A stretch of 64,000 nucleotides of DNA from Thioploca sp. (GTDB taxonomy: Bacteria > Pseudomonadota > Gammaproteobacteria > Beggiatoales > Beggiatoaceae), in the NCBI GenBank assembly GCA_012032555.1, contig JAAUSR010000008.1, positions 47,734-111,733 on the forward strand. The letters are read 5' to 3'. The position numbers and the translations under genes are program-made. This document shows, piece after piece, positions 46,871-49,978 of this stretch; positions within the stretch are counted from its first letter, which is position 1, and the number at the start of each line of letters is the position of its first letter. The notes under the pieces are model-generated. The model searched no databases, was not told the DNA's origin, and was given only the letters and a program-made list of their open reading frames with translations.

Positions 46871-48706
46871 CTAACGGGTTAGCCATTGTTCTCCGGTCCA
46901 TTCATTCCTCCCCGGTCGAGGGGTGATATAAATCTGACCAGAGGGAATTTCTTGGATTCCATAACACCCGTTGAGATTCACTGCAACAGCGGCGTGATAA
47001 ACTTCCCCTTGAATTTCACTGCCTTTAGCCGGAATTGGTTTGGAAATAACGAGTTGTGGATTGGTAACCGCTTCACAAGTTCCAGCTACCACCGGTTCTG
47101 CTTGCCAAATATAGAATCCTTGAGTTCCGTATTCTGCTAGCGTTTCCCATCTAATCGCATCGGACTCGATAGTGAAAGATCCCAAGGTGGCTAAAGCGGG
47201 TTTCTGATATTCATAAGCGCCAATATCACAATGATTGCCGGCTGAACTTCCAAAGCGAGCCACACCACGTTGATCCAGACCATTTACAGGTTCAGCCGCA
47301 CAAATCGTATCATCACCAACATCAATAGCGGGACTGCCTCGCAGTAAAGCGTGAGTGAAAGTTGGACCGCCGTTATTGGCTAATGGCCCTAATTTGGGAT
47401 CGCCGGAGAAGGTGGGGTTACAACTGCCGTCGCCGATGAAGTTGTTGAGGTTGGTGTCAATAGTGCCCCAATCATCACAATCTCCATTGGTGTTGTTGGC
47501 GATGAGGGTGTTTTGAAGGTTTAAAATGCCTCTATTAAGAATACCACCACCCTCATCCTGTACAGATACGTTTTCTGATATAGTACTATTGGTAAGAGTT
47601 AAAGTGCCACCATCGTTATAGATCCCACCGCTCCTAGGCTCATCTGAGTTATCTTCGACTACATTTCTTGACACGGTACTATTGATAAGAGTTAAAGTGC
47701 CACCATTGTTATAGATCCCACCACTCCCAGGATTGTAGTTACTTTTGACTATATTCTCTGATACGGTACTATTGATAATAGTCAAAGTACCTCCATCATT
47801 GTTAATACCACCAGCAGGATCACCAGCGGAATTTTCTGACACAGTACTATCAGTAATGGTTAAAGTACCATCATTTATAATACCACCACCATTGTTCTTC
47901 ACAGTACTATTGGTTAAAATTAAAGTACTACCATAAATGTTTTCAATACCAGTACCCTTATTTTTTAATATTTTACTATTGGTTATAGTTACAGTACCAT
48001 GAAGATTACCGATGCCACGATCATCGTTTTCTGATACGGTACTACCGTTAACCGTTAAAGTTCCCTCATTATAGATGCTAAATTGTTCATTTCCTACCAC
48101 CATAATGCGGATGATATCACTATTGTTTCCTAATATTACCTTATTTAAGGCCAAAATATCCCCGTTATCAATGTCAATAGTACACTCATAATAACCCTCA
48201 TAAGTTTGTGACACCTGACTATTAGTAAGAGTTAAAGTACCAAGATTATGGATACCACCAGCAATTCCATTTTCATAACAATATGAGATGGCCTTTCCTT
48301 CAATAATCTTAACCCCATTAATTTTAACCGTTGCACCAGAGTCAATGTAGAAAACGTTAGTCTGAAAGTTGCCACTCAAAGTCAACTTCTCCGCCCCTGG
48401 CCCTTTCAAAATCAAATTGCTCGTAATCTTCAACTGAGCAGATAACGTGATAGTCCCATTTAATCCCACTAAATCAATCACATCATCACCACTGCCCGCC
48501 AAACAATCACCTACCCCAGCCGTATCTTGATTAGCATTGTCCAACGCTTCTCGTAAAGTACACTGACCGTCGGCTAGTGTTGTATCCTCTAAACTGTTGA
48601 CGATTATAGTCGCAGCGAATAACGATTGACCTAAACCACTAAACATCAGTAACCCCGTGGCTAAATAGTGGTCTCTTAACCAGCGGGGAAGTTGGGTTAG
48701 ATTCAT
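46871..48706 (-). CDS. CSLREA-domain, right-handed parallel beta-helix secreted protein
   Basis: NSLEDTTLADGQCTLREALDNANQDT; repeats GGIYNDGGTLTLTNSTISENV; HCDIGAYEYQ. Confidence 0.9.
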   Translation of the reverse strand: MNLTQLPRWLRDHYLATGLLMFSGLGQSLFAATIIVNSLEDTTLADGQCTLREALDNANQDTAGVGDCLAGSGDDVIDLVGLNGTITLSAQLKITSNLILKGPGAEKLTLSGNFQTNVFYIDSGATVKINGVKIIEGKAISYCYENGIAGGIHNLGTLTLTNSQVSQTYEGYYECTIDIDNGDILALNKVILGNNSDIIRIMVVGNEQFSIYNEGTLTVNGSTVSENDDRGIGNLHGTVTITNSKILKNKGTGIENIYGSTLILTNSTVKNNGGGIINDGTLTITDSTVSENSAGDPAGGINNDGGTLTIINSTVSENIVKSNYNPGSGGIYNNGGTLTLINSTVSRNVVEDNSDEPRSGGIYNDGGTLTLTNSTISENVSVQDEGGGILNRGILNLQNTLIANNTNGDCDDWGTIDTNLNNFIGDGSCNPTFSGDPKLGPLANNGGPTFTHALLRGSPAIDVGDDTICAAEPVNGLDQRGVARFGSSAGNHCDIGAYEYQKPALATLGSFTIESDAIRWETLAEYGTQGFYIWQAEPVVAGTCEAVTNPQLVISKPIPAKGSEIQGEVYHAAVAVNLNGCYGIQEIPSGQIYITPRPGRNEWTGEQWLTR

Positions 48707-48795: not shown

Positions 48796-48946
48796 TTTAA
48801 TAATTGCAGAACAAAATTAAGCCGGAGTATTGTGGCATACAATCAATTTTTTGTCTTTTACGCAAGTGTCCAATTAACGTAATAATTTGATAAATAACAT
48901 TTTTCCATTTAATTTAATTATTAATGATGTGGTTTATTGCGGCGGA

Positions 48947-49052
48947 ATTTGACGATGGTGTCAAATTGGACTATTTAAGAGGTAAAAAAATTTGACAAAA
49001 GTGTCAAATTGGACAAAGTTTATGCCAACTCATTTGACAGATCTGTCCAATA
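48947..49052. promoter_or_regulatory. Candidate operator array: three TTTGAC-N5/6-TGTC(A/C)AA(A)T sites
   Basis: AATTTGACGATGGTGTCAAATTGGAC (48947-48972), AATTTGACAAAAGTGTCAAATTGGAC (48990-49015), ATTTGACAGATCTGTCCAAT (49033-49052); starts about 42-43 bp apart. Confidence 0.6.
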
Positions 49053-49163
49053 GCAAATTGAGTGTGGGAATTAATTTGTGATGAAATTTTTTTATTTATA
49101 GATAAATAAATGTTATAATTAATTAGTATAAAGTTCAGTTTCGCTCTTCTCACCCTACAAGAT

Positions 49164-49438: not shown

Positions 49439-49978
49439 TTGAAGGTAGGAATGTCATCACAAATCATGTTTTATTTGAAAGGTTTGACTATGAAAAATTC
49501 TTTTTATTTTGATTCACCTTCAACGACCAAAAGAAGGAATAGTACTCGGATAATATTTTTGCTGGTTTTATTATTAATATTAATCAGTTATATTGCAATT
49601 CCCCAAGTGATTAATTCGGCTCCAATAGCGGCTGTTGAAAATTCAACTACACAAGTGGTTAAAGTCATTCCATTACCGGATTTGAATAAAATAAAAATGG
49701 CCCAACAGCAAGTTGAATCCGAGCAGGAAGTAGCCCATTTATTACACCAACAACATCTGGATCCTTTGGCGAAGTATATTGAAATTAATCGTCTCAATGA
49801 AGCCAAAACTCCCTATGTTGAACAAGTTAAAATGGAATTGGCGCAAAGATGTAGCCAAGTTGAAAACCACTATCAATCGATGAAAACAGACCGGGTTACC
49901 TTAAAAAATTTGAAACAAGGGTATGGATATGCTTGCCCAGTGGTGGTTGAGCGGTTAACAAAAACCTTAACTAAATAA
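49439..49978 (+). CDS. Hypothetical single-TM protein (start may be 49490)
   Basis: ORF with one hydrophobic segment (IIFLLVLLLILISYIAIPQVI) near the N-terminus. Confidence 0.5.
   Translation: MKVGMSSQIMFYLKGLTMKNSFYFDSPSTTKRRNSTRIIFLLVLLLILISYIAIPQVINSAPIAAVENSTTQVVKVIPLPDLNKIKMAQQQVESEQEVAHLLHQQHLDPLAKYIEINRLNEAKTPYVEQVKMELAQRCSQVENHYQSMKTDRVTLKNLKQGYGYACPVVVERLTKTLTK

Follow-up and report, generated by a model that had tools for sequence, protein, structure and literature searches.

At class II promoters, activators are centred at −41.5 (CRP/FNR) or −42.5 (LuxR), and members of the FixJ-type family can act at about −42. The Thioploca locus described here resembles such promoters in its predicted layout: a degenerate palindrome abuts a weak −35 at a predicted position of about −42, with a sigma-70-type −10 at 17 bp. 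As at class II promoters with extra sites, further upstream sites lie in helical register. It differs from them in the upstream sites of the arrays, which number up to four and follow one another at a fixed 42–44 bp step. Among regulators of the CRP/FNR family, HcpR has the consensus ATTTGACC-N2-GGTCAAAT (PMC545781). It shares the half-site core TTTGAC/GTCAAA with the array, but its gap between half-sites is two bases shorter (TTGA-N8-TCAA in the array, N6 in FNR/HcpR-type sites), and its targets, hcp and frdX, differ from those of the array (PMC545781). The TAACTGA intergenic repeats of marine Beggiatoaceae are short direct heptamers at translation starts (PMC4679880). They too are intergenic and lie beside genes in a possibly related lineage, but are unrelated to the arrays in sequence and position (PMC4679880).

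Similar palindromes occur in two other settings. Upstream of crfA in Caulobacter, as in the array, two TTTGAC-N6-GTC(A/C)AA sites, including the GTCCAA variant, usually lie 43 bp apart (40–41 bp in some). This pair (L120:1999–2059 and other loci) is conserved across Caulobacter a short way upstream of CrfA, a carbon-starvation sRNA (RF01527), for which it is a candidate operator pair. Unlike the arrays, it is found at a single locus; its sites precede the Rfam-matched start of the RNA by approximately 100 and 145 bp. Lactococcus nasutitermitis (L114–L191) carries many, mostly intergenic TTTGAC-N6-GTCAAA palindromes, often paired at a variable 30–60 bp, which resemble a separate regulon or an intergenic repeat spread across that genome; such pairs are also present in L. 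hircilactis. The Caulobacter and Lactococcus look-alikes, being single-locus or variably spaced, were excluded from the evidence. No description of the motif or its regulon turned up in the literature searched, including by motif strings. The arrays apparently mark an undescribed set of co-regulated genes, controlled by a kind of system already known.

Results and Discussion

The window is the whole 64,000-nt stretch of DNA that was analysed. A preliminary description had reported a phased array of 26-bp sites in it, and the sequence and coordinates of this array were found to be correct on re-reading. The near-identical sites are real, but the core operator is a 22-bp palindrome, AATTTGACA-N4-TGTCAAATT; the 26-bp unit comprises this core plus a GGAC half-site that is present at some loci only. 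Three distal sites are found in the window:

48946..48967, unstranded: distal operator site 1, AATTTGACGATGGTGTCAAATT; the congener has the same sequence (L070:8668)
48989..49010, unstranded: distal operator site 2, AATTTGACAAAAGTGTCAAATT, the exact palindromic consensus
49031..49052, unstranded: distal operator site 3, CATTTGACAGATCTGTCCAATA; the congener has the same sequence (L070:8754)

Their starts are separated by steps of 43 and 42 bp, as first reported. An Rfam scan of the window gave no match.

The genome containing the window (G000, 5.55 Mb in 198 contigs) was compared with that of the sole sampled congener (G001, one 4.81-Mb contig); coverage of G000 was by pattern matching and by retrieval of selected stretches. 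A scan of the window alone, allowing three mismatches, was only weakly enriched (48 matches against 36 ± 7 in shuffles). Near-exact matches to TTTGACANNNNTGTCAAATT (≤1 mismatch) numbered 33 (16 + 17) in the whole window genome and 35 in the congener, with none in the reversed control (0 + 0) or the congener control. The signal thus lies in near-exact, clustered sites, and the genome-wide enrichment proposed as a check by the preliminary description favours function. Nine clusters are present in G000, on contigs C11 (the window), C42 (two), C94, C104, C107, C133, C174 and C186, and seven in G001, scattered round the chromosome. The sites were gathered by consensus, which inflates information content at the half-sites and leaves the low-information flanks and centre unaffected.

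Spacing was assessed in 43 family genomes using a relaxed two-site pattern, TTTGAN8TCAAA-N12..42-TTTGAN8TCAAA, which permits 30–60 bp from start to start. All ten pairs in G000 and eleven in G001 fell at 42–44 bp, with none in the control. This fits the earlier suggestion of a regulator bound on one DNA face: all 21 two-site matches have the same narrow spacing. The 41 other family genomes gave one match (G061), an unrelated tandem repeat, and the motif itself occurs in other family members as scattered single matches only. Among 44 clustered sites, 24/29 successive intervals were 42–44 bp, the others being 91, 110 or 133 bp. Steps of approximately four helical turns would place bound dimers on nearly the same face of the DNA, where they could assist recruitment or cooperate. 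An orphan partial copy of the LRR-gene array lacking the promoter element was also seen (L017:8559–8671, at G000:C42:21560); the unrelated sequence that follows it may be an inserted element.

A conserved promoter element, AATTGGACA-N3-(TAG)TAAAAGACAAA, accompanies the arrays. Searching with AATTGGACA-N3-TAGTAAANGACAAA (≤3 mismatches) returned seven matches in G000 (control 1) and five in G001 (control 0), all beside arrays, and no match in 11 other family genomes searched. A hexamer 15 nt downstream of the element matches TATAAT at ≥4/6 positions in 13/13 promoters, compared with ≤5/13 at other offsets, so that the −10 stands at a fixed distance from the putative activator site, as expected of an activator-dependent sigma-70 promoter. 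The resulting layout is AAGACA-17 bp-NANAAT. At the window locus the predicted promoter and its target are as follows:

48854..48875, minus strand: degenerate operator nearest the promoter, AATTGGACACTTGCGTAAAAGA, with its centre predicted at about −42.5; same element at other array loci
48852..48857, minus strand: predicted −35, AAGACA, which shares bases with the proximal operator
48829..48834, minus strand: predicted −10, CACAAT, 17 bp from the −35; same offset in 13/13 promoters
46871..48706, minus strand: target gene for a 611-aa exported beta-helix protein with a CSLREA motif, predicted 5′ leader of about 116 nt
49114..49119, plus strand: possible divergent −10 in the context TGTTATAAT, facing the 49439–49978 plus-strand ORF; conserved between the two species, putative role

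The minus strand from 48875 to 48850 reads AATTGGACACTTGCGTAAAAGACAAA and includes the fourth half-site (48865–48877) that had been set aside as out of phase. This is instead the promoter-proximal site on the minus strand, part of a promoter element directed toward the CSLREA gene. Assuming a start 7 nt past the −10, the centre of the degenerate site is predicted at about −42.5. Class II promoters of FixJ/LuxR/NarL regulators would have a palindrome centred near −42, to which this predicted value may correspond. The LRR, ASH, L072 and L024 promoters have 43–44 bp between the proximal site and the next one upstream; this distance is 76 bp in the LamG group, and at the CSLREA locus it is 92 bp.

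We consider it probable (roughly 0.78), from sequence comparison, that a sigma-70-type promoter dependent on an activator drives the CSLREA gene and has the array as its upstream control region, the cassette being shared across the genus. A dimeric DNA-binding activator would recognise AATTTGACA-N4-TGTCAAATT. The degenerate site AATTGGACA-N4-AGTAAAA, abutting the weak −35 AAGACA at about −42.5, would occupy the class II activation position, and two to four more sites would follow upstream, mostly in 42–44 bp steps of about four turns. One such cassette may control a set of secreted and surface-protein genes in the genus. The sites, their spacing, the promoter geometry, the conservation and the target set are observed in the sequences; from them we infer activation over repression, cooperativity, the transcription start and a single regulator. 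The preliminary statement that no feature type explains the array was too strong, since an activator-dependent promoter with upstream operators would do so. Points against this model are the 76- and 92-bp first gaps from the proximal site, loss of the element at L068, the homology of several loci and the lack of an array-linked regulator gene.

Palindromic operators are common for repressors, and the predicted −35 lies partly within the proximal site. A repressor might therefore bind the same operators, helped by looping or oligomerisation through the upstream sites, and shut off the surface-protein genes. We regard this as unlikely: in the proximal site it is always the half nearer the promoter that is degenerate, the site keeps a fixed predicted position of about −42.5 beside a poor −35 (AAGACA), as expected of class II promoters, and no operator lies between the −10 and the start in the promoters compared.

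Divergence between the two species was measured over five orthologous promoter pairs. Differences were found at 3/252 half-site positions (1.2%), 122/1056 spacer positions (11.6%) and 13/56 positions in site centres (23%); the comparison of half-sites with spacers gave Fisher p = 7e-9. Half-sites are thus kept far better than spacers or centres, and the conservation upstream of orthologues, whose absence the preliminary description had named as a refutation, was found and favours function. In the L021/L068 pair the centres of all three sites have changed together and the proximal element has been lost in L068. The central bases (L021:754–862 versus L068:7757–7866) went from the CTTT/GTTT type to CCTG between species; the joint change suggests gene conversion or shared selection.

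Several promoters are copies of one another. Full-length alignments are obtained among the LamG, small-protein and L071 promoter regions, and between the promoter regions of the orthologues L023/L069. Inspection by eye shows the L020 and L022 promoters to be recognisably related to L023/L069; an internal stretch of about 110 bp is duplicated. In the L022 promoter, the beginning of an L072-like gene, encoding its signal peptide, precedes a different gene. The sequence flanking the CSLREA array upstream is similar to the corresponding flank in the LamG group. These homologous copies (LamG/small-protein/L071 and the ASH group) mean that the loci are not fully independent and that the fixed spacing is partly inherited. 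Promoter segments duplicated onto unrelated exported genes would account for partial spread of the cassette, and the regulon most likely grew in part by promoter duplication. Homologous segments at several loci, the fragment-like L017 copy and the IS genes adjoining the L068 array would also be compatible with the ends or remnants of mobile elements (transposase-binding repeats or a MITE) that have no regulatory role. This is highly improbable: the arrays are one-sided and, with few exceptions, lead into the same promoter element, set at a constant distance from the −10, they hold orthologous positions in two species, and selection is concentrated in the half-sites.

Taking both species together, the promoters face about a dozen predicted secreted or surface-protein genes bearing signal peptides (called by eye), whose products have adhesion or Ig-like domains. 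Besides the CSLREA beta-helix protein, these include an LRR plus ASH/Ig protein of 1,960 aa, a LamG protein, and proteins of 1,300–1,800 aa with HYDIN/ASH Ig-like domains, InlB-type repeats, and G8 or F5/8 domains. Small secreted proteins are also among the targets, with an M6 peptidase carrying RTX repeats downstream. The large targets share a C-terminal region that occurs approximately 50 times per genome. In 20 paralogous regions outside the set, no upstream site (≤3 mismatches) or promoter match (≤6) was detected, although some true starts may fall outside the fetched stretch; the arrays thus mark a subset of the protein family. The preliminary description had overlooked that the fourth half-site belongs to a promoter directed toward the CSLREA gene, that the array has many counterparts and that secreted or surface proteins make up the target set.

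Two further reading frames are of note. The plus-strand ORF at 49439–49978 in the window encodes 179 aa with no Pfam match, and a close paralogue (L019:12594–13082) lies about 3 kb past the array-controlled LamG gene. At L024:7489–8300 the array-controlled signal-peptide frame stops after about 36 codons and a 178-aa ORF continues in another frame, making a frameshift in this gene possible.

The search for the regulator covered the CRP/FNR, GerE, TetR, HTH_8 and XRE families and found no regulator gene linked to the arrays. A CRP/FNR regulon was rejected on spacing, with TTGA-N8-TCAA in the arrays against the required TTGA-N6-TCAA or TGTGA-N6-TCACA. A genus-specific CRP/FNR binder was likewise discounted: the sole HTH_Crp_2 protein in G000 is DNR/FNR-like, with its own perfect TTGATTTGAATCAA box upstream. 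That box is also present in G001, which has one further HTH_Crp_2 protein with no counterpart found in G000. Full-length GerE proteins number two per genome, one GacA/NarL-like and one FixJ-like response regulator. They carry REC domains, with no autoinducer-domain receptor among them, excluding a LuxR quorum receptor; G000 also has a short partial GerE match (L111). The single TetR protein common to both genomes lies beside efflux genes and was dismissed. A sigma-54 enhancer was rejected, as no −24/−12 element (TGGCnC-N5-TTGC, ≤2 mismatches) occurs in 14 promoters and the HTH_8 survey returned mainly NtrC-sized proteins. One NtrC-type regulator gene (G001:C1:3724718) lies about 6 kb from the L072 array; similar proteins are found family-wide, and it is probably unrelated. 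XRE proteins were too many to separate (27 matches in G000). LysR was set aside by reasoning only, its T-N11-A being unfit for an even palindrome.

An orphan FixJ-type response regulator (L100/L101) would be compatible with the activator model as the protein acting on AATTTGACANNNNTGTCAAATT DNA, but is a doubtful candidate. Each genome yielded only two full-length GerE-domain proteins, of which this is one; it shows ≤48% identity to any family relative and has a recognition helix of KTVDNHK rather than KTVExHR. Against it, no array lies near its gene, and many other DNA-binding proteins are present, the XRE matches among them.

Conclusions

Beyond the activator-dependent promoter itself, we suggest only tentatively that a genus-specific regulator assembles on sigma-70-type promoters as dimers in phase, at three to five sites mostly 42–44 bp apart, that promoter capture, with entire cassettes copied onto further exported-protein genes, has enlarged a surface-protein regulon and that site centres drift together within an array.

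In this environmental lineage, sequence alone defines a regulon that is apparently undescribed. The array would mark which members of a very large secreted/surface family (about 50 one-module matches per genome) switch on together, and its sequence could serve as DNA bait to capture the regulator. With its fixed four-turn spacing and duplicated promoter cassettes, the regulon may further provide a testable case of how such systems expand.
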